Positions 27,283 through 38,836 of a stretch of DNA of 64,000 bases are shown piece after piece (position 1 is the stretch's first letter; every line of letters starts with the position of its first letter). A program made the translations under genes and the position numbers. Origin of the DNA: Acidimicrobiia bacterium (GTDB lineage: Bacteria; Actinomycetota; Acidimicrobiia; Acidimicrobiales; Poriferisodalaceae). The notes beneath the pieces were generated by a model. It worked only from the letters and a program-made list of their open reading frames with translations. It was not told the DNA's origin and searched no databases. The stretch is from contig JAJECP010000013.1 of the NCBI GenBank assembly GCA_022821985.1, positions 1 to 64,000 on the forward strand, in the 5' to 3' direction.

Positions 27283-28686
27283 TCACCGGCGGAGTCTCAG
27301 CAGGGCCGCCACGGCCGCTGAGGCTCGAGCAGGAATGGGTAGGAAATTGCCTTGAGCATCGACGCTCGGTCCAGCCACCAGCACGATGCGTGCCGTCACG
27401 AGCAGCGCGATCAGCACATGCGCTGCGGCCATCACGAGGTAGAACGCATTCAGCGTCACCGACATCGCGAGCGCGGCCACCGTCGGCCCGATCAGGGCAC
27501 CGACGCCGTTCATGCGCACGAGCACGGCGCTGGCGCTGGCGCGCTGCTCATCTCGCAGCCAGTCGTTGGTCTGCGCCACGGCCATGGAGTAGATGGGGTA
27601 GGCGAATGCTCCCATCAGAGCCATCACGGCGAGGCCTGCAACTGTGCGCTCGTCGAGTGCGAGCATCGCCAGGCAGCCCGATGCCGCCGCAAGCGCAGCC
27701 AGCAGGATCACCAAGCGCCGAGGCACGCTGTCGGACAGGCGGCCAAGCGGGATCTGCCCGAACAGGCTGCCGATCATCGGCGCACCCACGAACAGTGCGA
27801 CCTCGAAGGGCGTGAGCCCCCGGTTGGCGGCGTACACCGCTCCGAGACCCGAGATGGAGCCCAGCGCTCCGCCGACCAGGAATGCCACGATCACCCCGGT
27901 CGGCGCTGTTTGCAGCATCGCCCTCAGGCTGAGCGGCTCGGGCACGACCACTGGCGGGTTGGCCGAAGCCGACAGCGACATCGGAACCAGTGCCAGCGAT
28001 ACCAGCACCGAGGAGACGGCGAACAAGGTGAAACCGTTCACGTCGGCTGTGGTGACCAGGAACTGGCCGGTCGCGATCGAGCCCATGGTGACGACCATGT
28101 AGGTAGCGATCATCTGACCGCGGTTGCGGTTGGTGGCCAGCTCGTTCAGCCATGTCTCGGCTACCACCACCAGCGCTGCGAGGCACATGCCCCACACCAG
28201 CCGGCATGCGCCCCAGACCAACGGGGTCACGAAGACGGCCTGCACCAGCGTGACGCTGCTGCCCAGCGAGGCGAGTGCGGCGAAGACACGCACATGACCC
28301 ACTTGACGCAGCAGCCGCGGCGCCAGCGCTGCGCCCACCAGGAAGCCGGCAAAGTTCATGGCCATGACCAGCCCAGCCACTGTCGAGCTGAAGCCTTCGC
28401 TTTCGGCCCGCACGCCCAGCAGTGTGTTCTGGAGCCCGTGCCCGGCCATGAGCAGGGTGATGCCGCCGAACAGCGCGGCGCTCCGGCTGAACCGGCCGGC
28501 GAGCGCCGGACCGCCGACGACCGGTGCGGCCTGATCGACATCGCTCGACTGCTGCTGTTGCTGCTGCTCGGCGGCCAGTGTGCGTGCACGCCGCCGCACC
28601 CGTGCTCGCCGTGTCTGGCGTGCAGTGCTCGTTGCGCCGTCCTCGGAGGTCGGGGTCGGTTCAGGTGCTGGCGTCTGCGCCGACAC
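27283..28686 (-). CDS. MFS transporter with a Q-rich cytoplasmic leader
   Basis: 467-aa major facilitator protein, about twelve membrane helices, of the YcaD/CynX-like kind. The first 60 residues are a soluble basic and Gln-rich leader (AEQQQQQQSSD) coded by a run of CAG/CAA codons. The loop GQIPLGRLSDSVPRRLVIL (about residues 308-326) is the standard MFS inter-helix motif, and WGMCLAALVVVAETWLNE marks the central helices. Substrate unknown. It starts a few bases after the formate dehydrogenase Fe-S gene on the same strand, so it may be co-transcribed; formate or an organic anion would be a guess only. Confidence 0.82.
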   Translation of the reverse strand: MSAQTPAPEPTPTSEDGATSTARQTRRARVRRRARTLAAEQQQQQQSSDVDQAAPVVGGPALAGRFSRSAALFGGITLLMAGHGLQNTLLGVRAESEGFSSTVAGLVMAMNFAGFLVGAALAPRLLRQVGHVRVFAALASLGSSVTLVQAVFVTPLVWGACRLVWGMCLAALVVVAETWLNELATNRNRGQMIATYMVVTMGSIATGQFLVTTADVNGFTLFAVSSVLVSLALVPMSLSASANPPVVVPEPLSLRAMLQTAPTGVIVAFLVGGALGSISGLGAVYAANRGLTPFEVALFVGAPMIGSLFGQIPLGRLSDSVPRRLVILLAALAAASGCLAMLALDERTVAGLAVMALMGAFAYPIYSMAVAQTNDWLRDEQRASASAVLVRMNGVGALIGPTVAALAMSVTLNAFYLVMAAAHVLIALLVTARIVLVAGPSVDAQGNFLPIPARASAAVAALLRLRR

Positions 28687-28692
28687 CTGCGA

Positions 28693-29634
28693 CTAGTGCT
28701 CCGTTACCGATGTTGTGGGGGGCTCGAACGCTGGAGCGTGCACGTATTGCCAACCGAACCGGCCCTTGATGCACAGATGGCCGCTGGTCACCGAGTGATC
28801 GGCAGGCGACGTGACCTTCACGATGCGTTCGTCCTGGACATGCAGCTCGAGATTGCACCCCACACCGCAGTAGGAGCACACCGTGCGGGTGACGGCTTGA
28901 TCGTCGGGGCGCCACTCCCCCACGGCGCGCAAGTCGAACTCGGTGCGGAACTGCAAGGCGCCGGTGGGGCACACCGCCACGCAGTTGCCGCAGTACACGC
29001 ACGCACTGTCGGGGAGCTCGGCGTCGTACTCGGTGCGGATGCGGGCATCGAAACCGCGTCCTGCCACTGCGATGGCGAAGGTGTGCTGGGCATCGTCGCC
29101 GCAGGCCTCGACGCACTTGTAGCAGAGCACGCAGCGGTCGTACGCACGGATGTACAGATCGTCCTGGATGCGCACAGGTTCGTCGACGCGCTCGGGCTCG
29201 GGGCGCAAGGGCAGATCACCGCCGCCGTCCGCCGAGCCCTCGTAGCGGGCAGGGTCGGCGCCGTAGGTTCGTGACCAGTCGGCAATCTCCGACGCCTGCG
29301 AGAGGTCATTTGCCGAACCGAGGAATTCCAGCACCATGCGCCGGCTGTGGCGCACTCGCTCGGAATCGGTGCTGATCTGCATCCCCGCCTCAGCCGGTCG
29401 TGAGCACGCCGGCACCAGCGTGCGAGACCCTTCGAGCTCCACGACACAGACACGGCAGACGTTCACCGGTGTGAGGTTGGGCGCCCAGCAGATGGTGGGC
29501 GTCTCGACGTCGGCTGCCGTGCAGGCCGCCAGGATCGTCTCCCCCTCGGGCACCGTCACCTCGCGCCCGTCGATGCTCAGCGTCACCAGTGCTGTCTCGG
29601 CTGCGGGACGGGGGTTCTCACCGGAACGAGTCAT
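28693..29634 (-). CDS. Formate dehydrogenase iron-sulfur subunit = detached N-terminal half of the alpha subunit
   Basis: 313-aa electron-transfer protein of NAD-linked formate dehydrogenase. Domains in order: plant-type 2Fe-2S (Cys49, 60, 63, 77); a helical region where the usual His-Cys3 4Fe-4S motif is absent (SANDLSQASEIADW); two 4Fe-4S clusters (Cys168, 171, 174, 178 and Cys212, 215, 218, 222); and finally the 4Fe-4S domain that normally opens the molybdopterin catalytic chain (CSYCGVGC...GHLCIKGRFGW, Cys253, 256, 260, 288). The protein stops where the Mo-binding domain should begin, and that domain is encoded separately at 31408-33423. So FdsA-type alpha is split in two. Its ATG overlaps the stop of the NuoE-NuoF fusion by four bases. 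Confidence 0.88.
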   Translation of the reverse strand: MTRSGENPRPAAETALVTLSIDGREVTVPEGETILAACTAADVETPTICWAPNLTPVNVCRVCVVELEGSRTLVPACSRPAEAGMQISTDSERVRHSRRMVLEFLGSANDLSQASEIADWSRTYGADPARYEGSADGGGDLPLRPEPERVDEPVRIQDDLYIRAYDRCVLCYKCVEACGDDAQHTFAIAVAGRGFDARIRTEYDAELPDSACVYCGNCVAVCPTGALQFRTEFDLRAVGEWRPDDQAVTRTVCSYCGVGCNLELHVQDERIVKVTSPADHSVTSGHLCIKGRFGWQYVHAPAFEPPTTSVTEH

Positions 29635-31415
29635 GACGCAGTGTCTCCTAGCAGACCCAACTGCATGGCGGAGAGCACCGCTGAGGCCGCTGTATGGCCG
29701 AGCCCGCAGATGGAAGCGTCGCCCATGGCGTCCGCGATGTCTCCGAGCAGCTCACGCTGAGGTTCCGTCGACCGTCCTGTGCGACGGATCTGCGTCACCA
29801 GCTCGTGCTGGCGGACCGTGCCCACGCGGCAGGGAACGCACTGGCCGCACGACTCGTCGCGGAAGAACTTGGCCAGTCGCTCGACTACGGCGCTCATGTC
29901 GGCAGTGTCGTTGAAAACCATCACCGGGCCTGAGCCGAGCGTCGTGCCCGCAGCCCGTGTGTCCTCCAGCGAGAGCTGCAGCTCCCCGGCGTCGGGCCCG
30001 ACAAAGCTGCCCGCAGCACCGCCCAGCAGTACTGCGGCCAGCGTGCCCTGCACACCTCCGGCCAGCCCCAGCAGCTCGCCCAGCGTGATCCCGAAGGGAG
30101 CTTCGTACAGCCCTGGCCGGCCGACGTGACCGGAGAGGCAGAACAGCTTTGTGCCCGGCGAGCCCTCGGTTCCCACGCTGCGGTACGCCTCAGGACCGAT
30201 GCGCAGGATTTCGTTCACGTTGAGCAGCGTCTCAGGGTTGTTCACCACCGTGGGGCGGCCGAACAGCCCATGGGTCGTGGGGAATGGTGGCTTGTTGCGC
30301 GGCTCTCCTCGGAAGCCTTCGAGCGAGTTGAACAGGGCCGTCTCCTCGCCGCAGATGTAGGCCCCGGCGCCCCTGCGCAGCTCGATGTCGAACGGTTGCC
30401 CGGACCCGGCCGCGTCATCGCCGAGCCAGCCGGCGCTGTGGGCCTGTGCGATGGCATACCGGAGGCGTTGGGTGGCCAGCGGGTACTCACCGCGTATGTA
30501 GATCCAGCCGTGCTCGGCGCCCACGGTCAGGCCGGCCACAGCGATGGACTCGATGATGGCCAAGGGCTCCAGCTCGCAGAGCAGCCGGTCTTTGAACGTT
30601 CCGGGCTCGGATTCGTCGATGTTGGCGACGACGTGCTTGGGACCTTCGCCGTCGGCCACCGCTCGCCACTTGATGCCGGTGGGAAAGGCGGCTCCGCCGC
30701 GCCCCGACAGCCCGGCTGCGGTCACCTGGGAGATGACTTCGTCGGTTCCGAGGCTCAGTGCTGCGTCGAGGGCTGCTCCTCCACCTCGCTCCCGGTACGC
30801 CTCCATCGACATGCTCTCGCTGTGGCCGTGGTCCCGTCCGATCATGTGCCGCAGCAGGCTGGGTGTTTCGGGCGCCGACGCCGTGACGCTCACGAGCAGC
30901 GAATCAGGACCGCTGCCGTCTGCGGGGACGCGGTCGGGCTCGCGGCGACCCTGGATGAACACCGCCGGCGCCCGTTCGCACTGCCCGAGGCAGGGACCTT
31001 CGTGCACGGCATGACCCTGTGAGCGCAGGTGTTCCGCCAGGGATGCGGCACCTGCCAGCGCGCAGATGGGGTCGACGCAGACATGGCGGACGCTGAGCTC
31101 GTGAGCGGGGGCTTCGGTGCGGAACATCTCGTAGAACGTGGCCACGCCGTAGGCCTCCGCCGGTGGCACGCCCAGCGTCCGGCCGACGAAGTTGAGGCCG
31201 CCCGGCGAGATCCACCCGGCCTCGCGCTGGAGAGCATGCAGCGCAGGCAGCAACTGGTGCCGCATCTGCTTTCGCCGTTGCATCCCTGCGCGCACAACAC
31301 GCGGATGGGAGACGACAACGGCGCCGTCGCTCGCCTCGTCGACGCTGAGTGCAGCCAGCACCGCTCGTCGCTCCGATGCGGTGGGCTCCGCATCGGAGAA
31401 GTGCAGGTCAGCCAC
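29631..31415 (-). CDS. Formate dehydrogenase diaphorase subunit, NuoE-NuoF fusion
   Basis: 594-aa fusion that would pass electrons from formate to NAD+. The N-terminal part (about 1-150) is NuoE/FdsG-like: WISPGGLNFVGRTLGVPPAE, then a thioredoxin-fold 2Fe-2S site with CVDPIC and GPCLGQC. The rest is NuoF/FdsB-like: SEPGTFKDRLLCELEP, GAYICGEETALFNSLEG (FMN/NADH loop), an SLBB domain, and CGQCVPCRVGT as the 4Fe-4S site. In related enzymes these are usually two genes. A GTG at 31415 with AGGTGG upstream is my chosen start, overlapping the catalytic gene by 8 bp; the frame stays open to 31649, but the extra part has no NuoE homology. Confidence 0.87.
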   Translation of the reverse strand: MADLHFSDAEPTASERRAVLAALSVDEASDGAVVVSHPRVVRAGMQRRKQMRHQLLPALHALQREAGWISPGGLNFVGRTLGVPPAEAYGVATFYEMFRTEAPAHELSVRHVCVDPICALAGAASLAEHLRSQGHAVHEGPCLGQCERAPAVFIQGRREPDRVPADGSGPDSLLVSVTASAPETPSLLRHMIGRDHGHSESMSMEAYRERGGGAALDAALSLGTDEVISQVTAAGLSGRGGAAFPTGIKWRAVADGEGPKHVVANIDESEPGTFKDRLLCELEPLAIIESIAVAGLTVGAEHGWIYIRGEYPLATQRLRYAIAQAHSAGWLGDDAAGSGQPFDIELRRGAGAYICGEETALFNSLEGFRGEPRNKPPFPTTHGLFGRPTVVNNPETLLNVNEILRIGPEAYRSVGTEGSPGTKLFCLSGHVGRPGLYEAPFGITLGELLGLAGGVQGTLAAVLLGGAAGSFVGPDAGELQLSLEDTRAAGTTLGSGPVMVFNDTADMSAVVERLAKFFRDESCGQCVPCRVGTVRQHELVTQIRRTGRSTEPQRELLGDIADAMGDASICGLGHTAASAVLSAMQLGLLGDTAS

Positions 31416-33423
31416 CAGCGCCACCTGCCGCTGCGGTGCCAGATGCGCGGTCGGCGACGGCTGGGCCGGATGTACCGCCAGCGGCGGCAGTGAGAGGCGG
31501 CAGCGGGTCGATGCGAACGGCGGCGGCCTTGAACTCCGCCGTGCCGCTGCGGGCATCCCAAGCGTCGTTCGTGAGCAGGTTCGCATCCACCAGCTCCGGG
31601 AAATGGAACGTCGTGAAGACCAAGCCTGTGGGAAGGCGATCGGTGACATGCACGTCCATGTCCACCGAGCCCCGGGGTGAGCTCACACGCACCGTGTCGC
31701 CTTCGACGATCCCGATATCCGACGCGTCGGCAGGGCTGATCTCGATGGCATCACCGGAGCGGATGGGCGAGGAATAGCCCGCAGACTGCGCGCCCGTGTT
31801 GTAGGAATCGAGCACCCGGCCAGTCGTCAGGCGCAGTGGGAACTGCTTGCTCAGTGCCTCTGCGGGAGGAAGATGCGTGACGGTCGAAAATGGTGCCGGC
31901 GCATGGCCGTCGAGGTCGGGTTCCCAGAGCCAGCCGTGCAGGAACTCGGTGCCGGGATGGTCGTCGTCTGGACAGGGCCACTGCAGGCCGCCGCTCGCCT
32001 CGAGACGCTCCCAGCTCATGCCGCCATGCAACGGCGACAGCGATCGCATCTCGTCCCATAACTCCTGCGCGGACGTGGCCGTCCACCGCGCGCCCATGTG
32101 CTGTGCCAACTCGCTGATGATGTGCACATCGTCGCGTGCGTCACCCTGGGGAGGCACCGCAGCACGCACCCGCTGGACACGGCGTTCGGAGGAGGTGACC
32201 GTTCCCTCGCTGGAGGACCAGCCCGCAGCCGCAGGCAGCACCACGTCAGCCATCCGTGCGGTACGCGTCAGCGAGATGTCCTGCACGACCAGCAGGTCCA
32301 GCCCTTCGAGCAGCTTGCGGGCGTGAGCCACGTTGGCTTCGGAATCGGCCGGGTTCTCCCCGATGACATAGAGGGCCCGCAGCTCGCCGTCTTCCATGGC
32401 TTCGAACATCGCGGTGAGGTGCTTTCCCGGGACGGGATTCAGCTCACAGCCCCAGGTGCTCTCGTAGCGAGCCCGGACCTGGGGGTCAGTGAGGAGCTGG
32501 AACCCGGGCAGTCGATCGGGCAGAGCACCCATGTCGCCGCCGCCCTGCACGTTGTTCTGGCCTCGCAGGGGCACCAGGCCCGAGCCGCGCCGGCCGACAT
32601 GGCCGGTCAGCAGCGCCAGGTTGCACAGCGAGAGCACGTTCTCGACCGCCGTGTGGTGCTCGGTGATGCCCAGCGTCCACAGGATCTGCGCCCGGTCGGC
32701 CGTGGCATAACGGTGGGCCATCTCCGCGATGGCCTCTGCTGGCACGCCGGTCAGCCGCTCGCCCTCGGGGAGCGTGAACGGCTCTACCGATGCTGCGTAG
32801 GCATCGAACCCCGTCGTCGCATGATCGATGAACGACCGGTTGTGCATGCCCTGGGCGATGATCTCGCGAGCCACGGTGTTGGACAGCGCGATGTCTGTGC
32901 CCACGTCGAGGCCGAGCCACACGTCGGCAAACTCGGCCGAGGAGGTTCGGCGGGGATCCACTGCGTACATGGCAGCGCCGTTGTCAAGGCCACGCAGCAG
33001 GTGATGGAAGAAGATCGGATGGGCCTCACGGGCATTCGATCCCCACAGCAGGATGACATCAGTCTCGGTAATTTCCTGGTACGAGCACGTTCCGCCCCCG
33101 AGTCCGAACACTGTCGCCAGACCGACGACCGACGGAGCGTGTCAGGTGCGGTTACAGGAATCGATGTTGTTGGACTTCAGCACCGTCCGCATGAACTTCT
33201 GGGCTGCGTAGTTCATCTCGTTCGTACTCTTCGAGCACGAGAACATGCCGACGCCGCCTGCGCCATGCTGCTGGGTGGCCGCCCGCAGCCCCGATGCCGC
33301 ACGGTCGAGCGCATCGTCCCAGCTCGCGGGGCGCAGGACGCCGCCGTCACGCACGAGAGGCGTGTCGAGCCGCGCGAGAGGTGCTTGGCGCCCCCCCGAT
33401 CGTGCACTGTTCCCCCGCGGCAT
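31408..33423 (-). CDS. Formate dehydrogenase catalytic subunit (Mo/W-bisPGD), selenoprotein
   Basis: 671-residue catalytic chain read through an in-frame UGA at 33142-33144 as selenocysteine 94. The context NNIDSCNRT-U-HAPSVVGLATV matches formate dehydrogenases, in which this position is Cys or Sec binding the metal. Downstream the molybdopterin signatures continue in the same frame (LLWGSNAREAHP, VDPRRTSSAEFAD, LVPLRGQNNVQGGGDMG) through to the C-terminal domain (TGRVLDSYNTG). It lacks the N-terminal 4Fe-4S domain, starting instead at LDTPLVRDGGVLRPASWDDAL; that domain is carried by the protein at 28693-29634. ATG at 33423 has an excellent AGGAGGGG ribosome site. Ordinary gene callers would report two fragments or a pseudogene. 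Confidence 0.88.
33111..33144 (-). promoter_or_regulatory. Bacterial SECIS element after the formate dehydrogenase UGA
   Basis: Directly 3' of the UGA (33144-33142) the message folds into a short hairpin. GUCG (33129-33126) pairs with CGAC (33116-33113), U33125 is bulged, and a C-G pair closes a GGUCUG loop (33123-33118). A bulged U and a GGUC loop are the SelB contacts of the E. coli fdhF SECIS, and the spacing from UGA is about the same. This supports Sec insertion rather than termination. Confidence 0.78.
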
Positions 33424-33460
33424 CGCCCCTCCTCGGTTCGCCTGAGTGCCGTGATCCAGA

Positions 33461-33517: not shown

Positions 33518-33547
33518 GATTTGCTGCCCCGTATTGGCAGTGTGGCG

Positions 33548-33580
33548 TTCCGTAGAGCAGAACAGTTCCACAATACGGCA
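33548..33580. promoter_or_regulatory. Tandem operator of the methylated-amine regulon, copy 2 (formate dehydrogenase / iclR)
   Basis: Box A TTCCGTAGAGCAGAA (33548-33562) and box B TTCCACAATACGGCA (33566-33580) are joined by CAG with 18-bp phase, as at 11667 and 38837. The pair sits between the divergent formate dehydrogenase operon and the iclR gene, 46 bp before the iclR start. This placement suggests autoregulation. Confidence 0.75.
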
Positions 33581-33625
33581 CAAAAATACCGTCAACCGAC
33601 AGGTCCATGCTGCCCGCGGGCTACC

Positions 33626-34390
33626 GTGGAGCCGGTGCAGTCGATCTCTCGCGCGTTCGCTGTCTTGCGGGCATTGGCCGTGGGTCCACAGGGTGTCACC
33701 GACGTAGCCGATCACGTTGGGCTGCCGAAGAGCACGGTGGCCCGGCTGCTGACATCGCTCGAAGCAGTCGACGCCGTCGTCCAGGACGACGCAGGCGGCG
33801 ATTACCGGCTCGGACAGGGACTCATCGACATCATCGGGGCTGCTGGTGCAGATCGGAGCCTGCTGGCCGCGGCACGCCCGCACCTGCACAGCCTGGTCAA
33901 CCAGGTCGGCGAGACGGCCGGCGTGAGCGTTCGCGCAGATCGGACGGTGTACTACCTCGACCAGGTCGAGCCCGAGTCCGAAGTGCAAGTGCGCTCGTGG
34001 ACGGGCGAGTACTGCCCGATGCACTTGGTGCCTTCGGGGCTCGTGTACTTGGCCCATCTCAGCCCCGAGGCACTCGATGAGTACGTGCGCGCTGGTCTTG
34101 AGGCGACGACTGCGAACAGCATGGTCGATGCCGATGCGCTGAAGACGCGGCTGAGCCAGGTTGCCAACGCCGGATACGTCTGGGTGTACGAGGAGTTCGC
34201 CATCGGGATCAACTCGGTAGCCGCGCCGGTATTGAACGAGGAGGGTGCAGTGGTAGCGGCCCTGCATGTTCACGGGCCCGCGTACCGATTCCCCGATCCG
34301 AACAGCACCCACGACATCGGCCTCGTGCTCATCGAGGCCGCATCGAACCTGGCGGAGCACCTGGCAGGACGGGCGCCCCTGCCGGTGTAG
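33626..34390 (+). CDS. IclR-family transcriptional regulator, likely master of the C1 regulon
   Basis: 254-aa regulator with an N-terminal winged helix-turn-helix (QSISRAFAVLRALAVGP, then VTDVADHVGLPKSTVARLL) and a C-terminal IclR effector domain (GETAGVSVRADRTVYYLDQV, YCPMHLVPSGLVYLAHL, INSVAAPVLNEEGAVVAALHVHG). IclR proteins bind as dimers or tetramers to pairs of palindromes and respond to small organic ligands. Start is GTG at 33626, where homology begins. The tandem operator just upstream recurs before the corrinoid operon and between the flavoprotein and fhs operons, so this protein is the natural candidate for all three. The ligand is unknown; a methylated amine or C1 intermediate is inference. 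Confidence 0.88.
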   Translation: MEPVQSISRAFAVLRALAVGPQGVTDVADHVGLPKSTVARLLTSLEAVDAVVQDDAGGDYRLGQGLIDIIGAAGADRSLLAAARPHLHSLVNQVGETAGVSVRADRTVYYLDQVEPESEVQVRSWTGEYCPMHLVPSGLVYLAHLSPEALDEYVRAGLEATTANSMVDADALKTRLSQVANAGYVWVYEEFAIGINSVAAPVLNEEGAVVAALHVHGPAYRFPDPNSTHDIGLVLIEAASNLAEHLAGRAPLPV

Positions 34391-34401: not shown

Positions 34402-35445
34402 CTAGCTGGGGCGGTCGCGGCGGCGCCGGATCTCGTCGCAGATCGCGGGCACGACTTCGTGCAGGTCAGCAATGACTGCGTAGCCCGCCTTGGTGACCAT
34501 GTTGGCCTCAGGGTCGATGTTGATCGCCAGGATGTTCTTCGAACCCATGGCGCCGACCCAATGCTGGATCGCTCCCGAAATGCCGCAGGCAATGTAGATC
34601 TCTGGGGCGATCCGGGTGCCCGTCTGGCCGACTTGGTCTGCGTGCGAGCGCCAGCCGTTGTTCGTGACCGCTCGTGAGCATCCGACGCGGCCGCCGAGCA
34701 GGTCCGCTAGCTCTTCGAGCGGGGCGAATCCGTCTGCTGAGCCGACGCCTCGGCCGCCCGACACCACGACCGGCGCGGTGGACAGCGTGACGCCCTCGGC
34801 CAGCGTCACCCGATCGCGGACCAGGGTCTGCTGCACTTCAGGCCCAAGGTCGGGCTCGAAATCGGCAACAGCCGCTGGGACGGGACCGCCTTCGCACGGC
34901 TCGGCCTCGATGGAGTGCTGCGCAATAGTCAGCAGCGGCAAGGTCGAGGTGAGGGTCACGTCCTCGAGCAGCGAACCGCCCCACTGGATGCGAGTGATGT
35001 GCCACGCATCGCCGCCTGCGGGGCCGGACGGCGCATCGGCCAGCGAGCTTGCTGGCGACACGTTCACGCAGTTGGCCACAAGCGGCAGGTCGGTGCGGGC
35101 GGCGAGCTGGGCGATGGCCTCGGCACCACGATCGGTTCCCGCCGCCACGACGGCCACAGGCCCTGCAGCCTCGACGAACATCGCGAGCGCAGTGCCCCAG
35201 GCATCGGGTCCGTAGTCGGCCAGGAATGAATGGCGTCCGCAGTGCACCACAGCGGCGCCATAGTCGGCGCAGGCGGCAACGAGATCGGCGCCGTGCGCAT
35301 CGAACAGGTCGCCGTCGCCCAGGATGACGGCTACGAGATCCGTGTTCAGGTCCGAGGCGAGCGAGCGGGCCGCAGTCAGGGCTTCCAGGGCACCGCCTGA
35401 GGGGACACCACGGTCGTGGTCGATCAGGACAGCGACGGCGCTCAC
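34402..35445 (-). CDS. etfA: Electron transfer flavoprotein alpha subunit
   Basis: 347-aa FAD-binding subunit of ETF, accepting electrons from flavin dehydrogenases. The C-terminal FAD domain is clear: VVVSGGRGVGSADGF, CSRAVTNNGW, QVGQTGTRIAPEIYIACGIS and IQHWVGAMGSKNILAINID. The N-terminal domain (VAVLIDHDRG to about residue 200) is the usual non-conserved half. Its GTG start overlaps the etfB stop (GTGA), and both follow the dimethylglycine dehydrogenase-like gene by 10 bp, so the three form one operon and this ETF is probably that enzyme's electron acceptor. It converges on the iclR gene with an 11-bp gap. Confidence 0.93.
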   Translation of the reverse strand: MSAVAVLIDHDRGVPSGGALEALTAARSLASDLNTDLVAVILGDGDLFDAHGADLVAACADYGAAVVHCGRHSFLADYGPDAWGTALAMFVEAAGPVAVVAAGTDRGAEAIAQLAARTDLPLVANCVNVSPASSLADAPSGPAGGDAWHITRIQWGGSLLEDVTLTSTLPLLTIAQHSIEAEPCEGGPVPAAVADFEPDLGPEVQQTLVRDRVTLAEGVTLSTAPVVVSGGRGVGSADGFAPLEELADLLGGRVGCSRAVTNNGWRSHADQVGQTGTRIAPEIYIACGISGAIQHWVGAMGSKNILAINIDPEANMVTKAGYAVIADLHEVVPAICDEIRRRRDRPS

Positions 35446-36224
35446 AGCACCCCCAACTCGTCCAGCAGGTCCACCACAGCGGGTGCTGCAGCGGCACTGT
35501 CGCCGAGTTGCACGGTGGTGCTGGCACGCTCGGGCGGCCGGTGCAGCCGAACCCGTGACTGCCCGCCCGCATCAACATCGGCGGTGCAGTCGAGCACCTG
35601 GATCTGGGCCTTGCGCGAGGCGAGACGCCCTTTCATGGTCGGGTAGCGGGGCAGGTTGATGCCTTCCTTGACACCGAGCGCGCAGGGGGCCTCGAGCTCG
35701 TACACCTCGTAGCCGGCATCGGTCTCGCGGCGCGCGGTGAACCCTCGCTCATGGGGGTCGATGCCCTTGATGCCGTTCACGATCGGCCTCCCGAGCGCGT
35801 GCGCCACCCGGATGCCGACCTGGAAGTTGCCCCCGTCGGCAGATTCGTTGCCGAACAGGATCAGGTCGAACTGCCCACCGGCGGCCTCGAGCTCCCGCAC
35901 AGCGGACGTGATGGCGACGGCCGTTCGCTGGGGATCCCAGTCGAGGCCGCCCTCGGCCATCACCAGGGCGAACTCGTTGCCGCCGACGCTGGCTGCATAG
36001 CGCAGCTGCTCAGTGGACGCCTCGGGACCCAGCGTGAGCACCACGACGGCATGTTCATCGCCGTCGAGCTGCTCCACGATCTGGGCGGCCTCCTCCACCG
36101 CGCATTCCTCGTGCGGGCTGGTGGTGAAGCCCAAATGGGCAGTATCGACCTGCTGGCCGTCATCGGTGACATTGATGCGTGAGCCGACGGCAGGCACTCG
36201 CTTCACGCACACCAGGATGCGCAT
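35442..36224 (-). CDS. etfB: Electron transfer flavoprotein beta subunit
   Basis: 260-aa ETF beta subunit. The start MRILVCVKRVPAVGSRINV, the central HAVVVLTLGPEASTEQLRYA and FDLILFGNESADGGNFQVG segments, and the late LPRYPTMKGRLASRKAQIQ are all standard. It binds AMP and forms the partner-docking surface with etfA. Located between the flavin dehydrogenase gene (10-bp gap) and etfA (4-bp overlap) in one operon. Confidence 0.93.
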   Translation of the reverse strand: MRILVCVKRVPAVGSRINVTDDGQQVDTAHLGFTTSPHEECAVEEAAQIVEQLDGDEHAVVVLTLGPEASTEQLRYAASVGGNEFALVMAEGGLDWDPQRTAVAITSAVRELEAAGGQFDLILFGNESADGGNFQVGIRVAHALGRPIVNGIKGIDPHERGFTARRETDAGYEVYELEAPCALGVKEGINLPRYPTMKGRLASRKAQIQVLDCTADVDAGGQSRVRLHRPPERASTTVQLGDSAAAAPAVVDLLDELGVL

Positions 36225-36234
36225 CAGCGCGCCC

Positions 36235-38757
36235 TCAGGCCTTCATGCGGCTGTCATGGGGATCGAACAGCGCGAGATTCGCACCCGTCGCCTCCACCGT
36301 CACCGGGTACTGCTCATGTTGATACATGACCGACAGCTCAGTGCCCGCTGCAGCCAACTCGGGCGGCAGGTAGGCCATTGCCAGGTAGGCACCGAGCGAT
36401 GGTGCGTTGCCCGCGGTGGTGACGCGGCTGACCCTGCCGTGCGAGTCGACAATCCGCTCCCCCGCCGGTGTCAGCACAGGCTCGTTGCCGGCCCCCATCG
36501 GGAAGCGGTCGTAGCCCTCGGCACAACGCAGGCTCTCGAAGCGCAGCACACAGAGCTGGGCTGCCAGCGGCGCCTCCCGGGCCGCCAGGTACGCCTCCTT
36601 GCCGATGAAATCGGCAGCTTTCACCCGGGGCCGGGCCAAGCCCGCCTCGACCGGGTTGTAATCGCTCTCGAGCTCGGCGCCCATGAGCCGGTAGCCCTTC
36701 TCGAGCCGTCCGGTGGTGCCATACACCCCCGCACCGACCGGCCGCAGGCTGTATTCCCGCCCGGCCTCGGCAATGGCGTCCCACAGCGCCAGCCCTGCGC
36801 TCGTAGGGCAGTAGATCTCGAAGCCCGCATCGCCGACGTAGGAGATGCGAAACATCTGCACCGGGATGCCCGAGAGCAACGCATCGCGCACCTGGCCGTA
36901 GCCGAAAGCCTTCTGGGACAGGTCGGTTTCGGTCAGCGTCTGCAGCAGCGCGATCGCATTGGGGCCCCACACGCCATAGGTAGCCAAGGCCTCGGTGCGG
37001 TTCTCGAAGTGCACGCCGTCGGCGGGCAGGTTGTGGCGGAACCAGTACTCATCACGACCGCCGTCGAATGCACCGGTGGCAATGCGGAAGCGGTCCTCGG
37101 ACAGGCGCACGATCGTGAGGTCGGACCGGAAGCCGCCGTCGGCGGTGAGCACCGGGGTATAGATAGAGCGGCCGACCGGCAGGTCGCACTTGTTGACCAC
37201 CATCTTCTCGATATAGGGCACCACGCTTGGGCCCGACACCTCGAACACCTGGAACGGCGAGATGTCCACCAGCCCGCAGTGCTCCCGCAGGTGCAAGTGC
37301 TCGGCATCGGTGATGGGACTCCACCAGCGAGCATCCCACTCGTGGGTACGGCCCTCGATGCCGTAGCGGTCGACGAGGTCGGCATTCGATTCGTACCAGT
37401 GCGGTCGCTCCCAGCCGCCGGCCTCGAAGTAGAAGGCTCCGAGGTCATCGGTGCGGGCCTTGGCGGGTCCGCAGGTGAAGTTGCGGCGCGTCGCCCACTG
37501 CTCGCGTGGATGCACGATGCCGTAGGTCTTGTTGAAGTGCTCGTCGGCCCGGGTCTCGATGTGGATGACGTTGCGATCCTGGGGGTAGAAGCGCGTGACG
37601 TCCGAGCCGTGGGGATCGGTCATGCGGGGATAGCCGTAGGTCATCCATTCGGCCATCAGGCGCCCCACACCAGGACCTTCTTTGACCCACACCGCCGCCA
37701 CCGACCACAGGTTCTCGACCTCTGGTGTCGGGCCCAGCACCGGCGAGGCATCGGGCGTCAGCGAGAGCAGGCCGTTGATGGCGTACTTGATCTCACCGTC
37801 GCCCAGGAACTCCATCAGCTCGATGGCCTGCTCGAGTTGCTCGTCGAAGTCATCGGGCGTGAACGGCATCTCGGTGGGACTGAGGGCTGCTTCCTCGTTG
37901 GAAGGGATGTCCTCGACACGGTGCAGGATCGGCCGGTGGGCGTAGCTGCCCACCTCCATGGAGCCGGCCGACTGCCGCTCGTAGCAGAAGGTGTCCATGT
38001 CGCGCACGATCGGGTATGCCAGCTCCTGATTTGTCTCGACCAGCACGTCGAACGGGCCCACATCGACCATCTGGTGGACGGCGGGTGTGAGCGGGATGGT
38101 GGCTCCGGCCATCTGGGCGAGCTTGGGGCTCCATACGCCGCAGGCGATCGCCACGGTGTCGCATTCGATGCGGCCCCGATCGGTCACCACTGCGGAGATG
38201 CGGGGGCGGTTCGCTCCGGCCATGGTCTCGATGTCGAGCACTTCGGTGTTGGCGAAGGTCTGCAGGTGGCCAGCCTCGGTGGCCCGGCGGCGCATCTGCG
38301 TGCCCGTCTCCAGCGAGTCCACAGCTGAGACGCTGGGGGTATAGAAACCGCCCAAGATGACATCGGAGTCGATGAACGGCACCATTTCGACGACCTCGTC
38401 CACCGTGAGCAGCTTCGACTCGATGCCCCAGCACGTCGCCGAGGTCATGCGGCGGCGGAACTCTTCCATGCGCTCGGGGCTGCGTGCCACTTCGATGCCG
38501 CCGCACGTGTTCTGCAGACCCAGTGCCTCGTACTGGTGCTGGCTGTCGACCGTGAGATCGACGATTTCCTTGGAGTGATCGACGGGGAAGATGAAGTTCG
38601 ATGCGTGGCCGGTGGATCCGCCCGGATTGGGCAGCGGGCCCTTGTCGAGGAGCACGATGTCGGTCCAGCCGAGATCGCTGAGATGGCCGACCAGGCAGTT
38701 GCCGACGATGCCTGCACCAATGACGACACAATCTGCCCGCGCCGGAAAGTCACTCAT
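36235..38757 (-). CDS. Dimethylglycine/sarcosine dehydrogenase-like flavoprotein (DAO + GcvT domains)
   Basis: 840-aa enzyme that would oxidatively remove an N-methyl group from dimethylglycine, sarcosine or a similar amine, handing the C1 to tetrahydrofolate and electrons to ETF. Residues about 5-380 form the FAD domain (CVVIGAGIVGNCLVGHL). GGSTGHASN corresponds to the family's WHAAG region, whose His carries covalent FAD in mammalian DMGDH; that His is kept here. After the FAO linker domain, residues about 430-840 are GcvT-like (LVDISPFQVFEVSGP, ISYVGDAGFEIYCP, GTTGRLEKGYRLMGAEL). ATG at 38757 follows GGGGGATGAG. It leads the etfB-etfA operon and shares its control region with fhs. Confidence 0.87.
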   Translation of the reverse strand: MSDFPARADCVVIGAGIVGNCLVGHLSDLGWTDIVLLDKGPLPNPGGSTGHASNFIFPVDHSKEIVDLTVDSQHQYEALGLQNTCGGIEVARSPERMEEFRRRMTSATCWGIESKLLTVDEVVEMVPFIDSDVILGGFYTPSVSAVDSLETGTQMRRRATEAGHLQTFANTEVLDIETMAGANRPRISAVVTDRGRIECDTVAIACGVWSPKLAQMAGATIPLTPAVHQMVDVGPFDVLVETNQELAYPIVRDMDTFCYERQSAGSMEVGSYAHRPILHRVEDIPSNEEAALSPTEMPFTPDDFDEQLEQAIELMEFLGDGEIKYAINGLLSLTPDASPVLGPTPEVENLWSVAAVWVKEGPGVGRLMAEWMTYGYPRMTDPHGSDVTRFYPQDRNVIHIETRADEHFNKTYGIVHPREQWATRRNFTCGPAKARTDDLGAFYFEAGGWERPHWYESNADLVDRYGIEGRTHEWDARWWSPITDAEHLHLREHCGLVDISPFQVFEVSGPSVVPYIEKMVVNKCDLPVGRSIYTPVLTADGGFRSDLTIVRLSEDRFRIATGAFDGGRDEYWFRHNLPADGVHFENRTEALATYGVWGPNAIALLQTLTETDLSQKAFGYGQVRDALLSGIPVQMFRISYVGDAGFEIYCPTSAGLALWDAIAEAGREYSLRPVGAGVYGTTGRLEKGYRLMGAELESDYNPVEAGLARPRVKAADFIGKEAYLAAREAPLAAQLCVLRFESLRCAEGYDRFPMGAGNEPVLTPAGERIVDSHGRVSRVTTAGNAPSLGAYLAMAYLPPELAAAGTELSVMYQHEQYPVTVEATGANLALFDPHDSRMKA

Positions 38758-38836
38758 AACTCTCATCCCCCGCCATTGCTGGTCAACAGCATGCCGCAGC
38801 ACCGCTGCCGCATATCGCTGCTATGGATCGATGCTG

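Follow-up and report, generated by a model that had tools for sequence, protein, structure and literature searches.

Closest to the enzyme analysed here are the FdsABG formate dehydrogenases of Rhodobacter capsulatus (6tg9, 9wxb) and Cupriavidus necator, which have the same catalytic domains and FdsG and FdsB modules and whose alpha subunit, FdsA, has the same [2Fe-2S], two ferredoxin [4Fe-4S] and Mo-proximal [4Fe-4S] clusters. In them, by contrast, FdsA is a single polypeptide that bears a His-Cys3 cluster and has Cys at the metal, and FdsG and FdsB are separate genes in the order fdsG-fdsB-fdsA. Methylorubrum extorquens FDH1 (7vw6) is like our enzyme in lacking the His-Cys3 cluster and in having FdsG and FdsB fused, a fusion present in Methylobacterium oryzae too, but the alpha subunit of FDH1 is one chain of 989 aa and it is no selenoprotein. 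E. coli FdhF (FDH-H) has a Sec active site like our enzyme, yet it carries its own Mo-proximal [4Fe-4S] cluster, has a hydrogenase partner and lacks an NAD module. A further enzyme, the cytoplasmic FDH3 of Actinomycetospora chiangmaiensis, comprises the selenocysteine-containing FdhA3 (640 aa), FdhB3 (614 aa) and FdhC3 (316 aa), deposited as WP_084681743, WP_018332443 and WP_018332444; all three proteins were found by proteomics and were 2.2- to 3.1-fold up on a formate-yielding substrate (PMC7176365). Formate removal by this organism needs selenium and is unaffected by tungsten; because FDH3 and the membrane-bound FDH1 are not told apart in that study, the selenium effect is not attributable to FDH3 alone (PMC7176365).

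We analysed a 64,000-nucleotide stretch of an Acidimicrobiia genome (the window; contig JAJECP010000013.1) in which three adjoining genes very likely give rise to a soluble formate dehydrogenase that depends on NAD+, contains selenocysteine and belongs to the complex-I-related (FdsABG) kind, with the alpha subunit divided into two proteins. The features of the three genes are as follows.

31408..33423, minus strand: catalytic subunit, 671 aa, with PF00384 and PF01568 and without an Fe-S domain (profile matches)
33426..33434, minus strand: ribosome-binding site GAGGAGGGG upstream of the catalytic gene, read directly
33142..33144, minus strand: in-frame TGA, the selenocysteine codon; the catalytic ORF is readable only with Sec here
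33113..33129, minus strand: fdhF-type SECIS hairpin GTCGTC-GGTCT-GGCGAC, starting 12 nt 3' of the Sec codon
29631..31424, minus strand: FdsG-FdsB fusion diaphorase, 597 aa, GTG start at 31424 (profile matches)
28693..29634, minus strand: FeS subunit, 313 aa, a stand-alone protein made up of the N-terminal region of FdsA and the Mo-proximal domain
29362..29589, minus strand: [2Fe-2S] domain PF13510 of the FeS subunit, residues 16-91, with C49, C60, C63 and C77
29155..29343, minus strand: expected site of the His-Cys3 [4Fe-4S] ligands in the FeS subunit; ligands absent
28954..29139, minus strand: two ferredoxin-type [4Fe-4S] clusters, with C168, C171, C174, C178, C212, C215, C218 and C222
28735..28896, minus strand: Mo-proximal [4Fe-4S] domain PF04879, with C253, C256, C260, C288 and K290

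Two features that mark FdsABG-type enzymes were found, namely a Mo/W-bisPGD domain with Cys/Sec-His and Arg-Gly-Gln and an FdsG/FdsB diaphorase with its 2Fe-2S, FMN/NAD and N3 4Fe-4S domains, and two were lacking, namely an alpha subunit in a single chain with an N-terminal Fe-S region and the His-Cys3 cluster. The diaphorase carries the thioredoxin-like 2Fe-2S domain PF01257, the NAD/FMN (Nuo51) domain PF01512, an SLBB domain and the N3-type 4Fe-4S domain PF10589. It begins inside the end of the catalytic gene, and an ATGA couples its stop to the ATG of the FeS gene. An earlier note, made from the letters of the window, had proposed a split alpha subunit and a permuted gene order. Its coordinates (28693-33423) were correct; on the minus strand they span the catalytic gene (33423-31408, opening with ATG) through to the FeS gene (29634-28693), and the order catalytic - FdsGB - FeS is indeed circularly permuted relative to the customary FdsGB-FdsA. 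Its statement that all other clusters lie on the last gene needs a small correction, the [2Fe-2S] (PF01257) and N3-type [4Fe-4S] (PF10589) clusters being on the middle gene.

The position of the split was defined by alignment to the single-chain enzyme. The FeS protein aligns to residues 17-303 and the catalytic protein to residues 308-931 of R. capsulatus FdsA (6tg9_A, 958 residues), so that the two tile one FdsA with no overlap (the FeS protein matches 17-303 of 9wxb as well), and the break falls just after GRFGWQYVHAP, where the earlier note had placed it; the FeS protein ends in this motif followed by a 12-residue tail. The first FDH-like residues of the catalytic protein, R18/L19, correspond to residue 308 of 6tg9_A and residue 310 of 9wxb_B. 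The catalytic protein misses the equivalog cut-off of the Fdh-alpha profile TIGR01591 (628 vs 666 bits), and the first 51 positions of that profile fall on the FeS subunit. Modelled as a single chain, the catalytic protein folds well (pLDDT 82), and its best Foldseek matches are FdhH (1fdi), RaFDH (9ktl) and MeFDH1 (7vw6) at a TM of ~0.86, E. coli FdhF being the best; the single-chain model of the FeS subunit is poor (mean pLDDT 58). In every one of 60 solved relatives the matched region begins at least 50 residues into the chain, which indicates that the N-terminal region remains attached in them. Separately, we observed a shared C-terminal tail of the pattern QELGDLATTPIDDVLRRAR after the Mo-proximal domain in a subset of FeS subunits, those of L050-L052, L077, L078, L202 and L210.

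The active site of the catalytic subunit comprises Sec94-His95 and Arg287-Gly-Gln, which corresponds to class I in PMC8808070. Position 94 (Sec or Cys), His95 and Arg287-Gly-Gln are invariant in all 26 catalytic subunits aligned, in an alignment that displays U (Sec) as C. That the catalytic gene encodes a selenoprotein (context SNNIDSCNRT-U-HAPSVVGL) was absent from the earlier note. Among the split-family loci, the Sec position is TGA in 127/131 and a Cys codon in 4/131. The GGTCT loop of the hairpin, which as GGUCU we take to be the loop of the E. coli fdhF SECIS, is unchanged in 100/100 distinct Sec sequences and is lost or changed in every Cys orthologue, and the stem shows compensatory changes on both sides (C-G to G-C and G-C to A-T). 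The SECIS call is made on this loop conservation and covariation; folding energy does not carry the argument, being unremarkable against mononucleotide shuffles (mean z -0.7). The source genome encodes tRNA-Sec (ARAGORN), SelA, SelB, SelD and FdhD, and every element looked for in a selenocysteine formate dehydrogenase (in-frame UGA, SECIS, SelABD and tRNA-Sec) is therefore present. Two side observations concern selenium. The four Cys-bearing split enzymes (L106-L109) belong to a single genus, in genomes that are all large (6-10 Mb); their SECIS loop is altered, and they are a natural Sec-to-Cys replacement. The ORF of the source genome's SelD (G000:C10:4396-5349, L293) spans one in-frame TGA, and this SelD is probably itself a selenoprotein.

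Within the FeS subunit, the 16 cluster Cys and Lys290 are invariant in 28/28 aligned sequences. The domain for the cluster adjoining the metal (Mo-proximal, PF04879) is encoded on a polypeptide other than the catalytic one, and the His-Cys3 motif is missing, both as the earlier note had claimed; the motif is absent throughout the split FeS subunits. We considered the loss of the motif as a consequence of the split and rejected this, since fused MeFDH1 (7vw6) and the fused actinobacterial alphas L127 and L134 are also without it; the loss is therefore not special to split enzymes. A HoxU-type linker, which ends before PF04879 and has the His-Cys3 cluster, shares neither feature with the FeS subunit. 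In haloarchaeal plasmid formate dehydrogenase loci (Halomicrococcus L266 and Halocatena L289), too, FdhF and a NuoF-like protein are accompanied by a separate FeS protein, but there the division comes ahead of the Mo-proximal domain, which remains on FdhF, and His-Cys3 is present (L266 read). At these haloarchaeal loci (L266, 4162-6447; L289, 3162-5432) a DUF1641 protein and a second molybdopterin oxidoreductase then follow.

To place the locus among its relatives, at least 591 stretches were sampled, the split family being larger than this sample. The same split and the order catalytic - FdsGB - FeS on one strand were found in 130/130 loci holding all three genes (at least 130 were sampled), single-contig genomes among them. 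No CxxCxxxC motif occurs in the upstream frames of the catalytic gene in any of 130 loci, and 129 FeS proteins end in the Mo-proximal motif, the C-terminal motif being missing in L071. By table count, an FeS subunit with an identity of about 55% or higher is present in 136/395 genomes of the Acidimicrobiia, the class in which the earlier note had advised looking for the same split, and in a wider phylum sample it was counted in 41/396 genomes, 34 of them outside the class. Matches examined at 30-42% identity proved to be N-terminal portions of conventional, fused alphas. No split relative was found on plasmid records, where all 224 FeS matches were below 60% identity. Loci with fused alphas mostly run FdsGB and then FeS-catalytic; in L127 FdsGB comes after the alpha, and no FdsGB match was obtained for L128 or L139. 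The alphas of L125 and L128 are fused in a single frame.

The catalytic domains of the split enzymes group in one clade (support 100) apart from fused FdsA, and the FeS parts form one clade too (support 100); the split clade has a long stem, and its neighbours are weakly supported (aLRT 87). Members occur in Actinomycetota, where Pseudonocardia and Actinomycetospora isolates are among them, and in MAGs labelled Chloroflexota, Acidobacteria/Acidobacteriota, Eremiobacterota, Planctomycetota, Myxococcota (Myxococcales) and Dormiibacterota; MAG labels may err for single contigs, although several phyla recur. In the Pseudonocardia and Actinomycetospora genomes of L252-L254, a split enzyme was seen alongside an ordinary fused FdsA. 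The split FeS gene is present in 17/18 Actinomycetospora genomes, and in one of this genus (L286) possible start codons give proteins of exactly 640, 614 and 316 aa. Judged by genus, gene order and lengths rather than by its own sequence, FDH3 is very probably a member of the split family, and on the strength of the FDH3 proteomics, the 17 genomes and the L286 lengths the three chains very probably occur in the cell as separate proteins. The split architecture is a genuine variant of NAD-linked formate dehydrogenase, and it is conserved and widespread.

The genes surrounding the three formate dehydrogenase genes are listed here.

27283..28686, minus strand: MFS transporter, start 7 nt past the FeS stop (profile match)
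33521..34390, plus strand: divergent IclR-type regulator
34402..36224, minus strand: ETF alpha and beta
36235..38802, minus strand: dimethylglycine/sarcosine dehydrogenase-like protein (DAO plus folate-binding GCV_T)

The IclR / ETF / dimethylglycine-dehydrogenase-like neighbourhood is partly kept in other Acidimicrobiia. The FeS gene, called last in the operon by the earlier note, is the last of the three formate dehydrogenase genes but may not end the operon; the MFS gene is probably co-transcribed with them. An MFS gene was also seen near the formate dehydrogenase genes in several other Acidimicrobiia, and the transporter is possibly linked to formate or a formate precursor. We propose that the catalytic subunit would oxidise formate at its Mo (or W) bis-PGD / Sec site. 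A [4Fe-4S] cluster carried in trans on the C-terminal domain of the FeS subunit would accept the electrons, which would then travel via a further two [4Fe-4S] clusters and one [2Fe-2S] cluster to the FdsGB fusion, where FMN would hand them on for reduction of NAD+. The three chains would assemble into one complex, with the Mo-proximal domain docking in trans at the position it has in FdsA. Formate may come from methyl-group oxidation by the adjoining dimethylglycine/sarcosine-dehydrogenase-like enzyme, and its disposal would yield NADH.

Faulty joining within a tandem copy could produce a circular permutation, and the source genome is a draft in 41 contigs, so that an assembly error, or a degenerate copy of a standard fdsGBA operon, has to be weighed. 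We give this explanation virtually no credence because the layout is conserved: the identical order recurs in all 130 loci, in independent assemblies that include single-contig genomes and near-identical relatives (L146, L147), which excludes a misassembly, and the complete ORFs, coupled genes and invariant ligands are not those of a decaying copy. The earlier note had held that a second, full-length alpha in the genome would speak against its reading. None was found among the eight PF00384 matches in the source genome, their Fe-S N-termini being judged from the sequences; apart from the catalytic gene they are NuoG (L006) and six without an FdsA-like Fe-S N-terminus.

The remaining alternatives accept the split and concern what the proteins do. 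HoxU-like proteins occur as separate subunits, and the haloarchaeal loci too have a separate FeS protein, so FeS-FdsGB might be a free HoxEFU-like diaphorase, with the catalytic subunit using another acceptor and the Mo-proximal domain a relic. This is improbable, since a catalytic chain without any Fe-S cluster requires a partner cluster for its electrons, Lys290 and the cysteines of the Mo-proximal domain do not vary, and the three genes remain together. It is similarly improbable that the enzyme is mainly a CO2 reductase or acts on another substrate: the reaction is reversible, as established for FdsABG-type enzymes, but the neighbouring genes suggest demethylation yielding C1 units, and Actinomycetospora without selenium accumulates formate (PMC7176365). 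We therefore retain NAD-linked formate oxidation by a complex with a divided alpha subunit as the preferred reading, and the Mo-proximal [4Fe-4S] domain is probably a permanent separate subunit acting in trans throughout a widespread lineage of the DMSO-reductase superfamily, an architecture likely not described before.

Sequences of members of this lineage already exist, with piecemeal annotation, and members have been detected in one proteome, that of Actinomycetospora (FDH3); the main text of that study names only alpha, beta and gamma subunits and leaves the split unremarked (PMC7176365). No description of the split was found in a literature search that had most subscription journals outside its reach. 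To annotation pipelines FdhA looks incomplete and is, in addition, truncated at the TGA, and NAD-linked formate oxidation is thus easily overlooked in Acidimicrobiia, Chloroflexota and soil actinomycetes. The split enzyme is cut between the cofactor and the first cluster, and this cut is retained across phyla. It raises the questions of whether insertion of the Mo/W-pterin and assembly of Fe-S clusters can take place on separate chains, and how the electron step from pterin to cluster survives a subunit interface. A further question is whether the electron-transfer module can be swapped, which would be useful for CO2-reducing biocatalysts.
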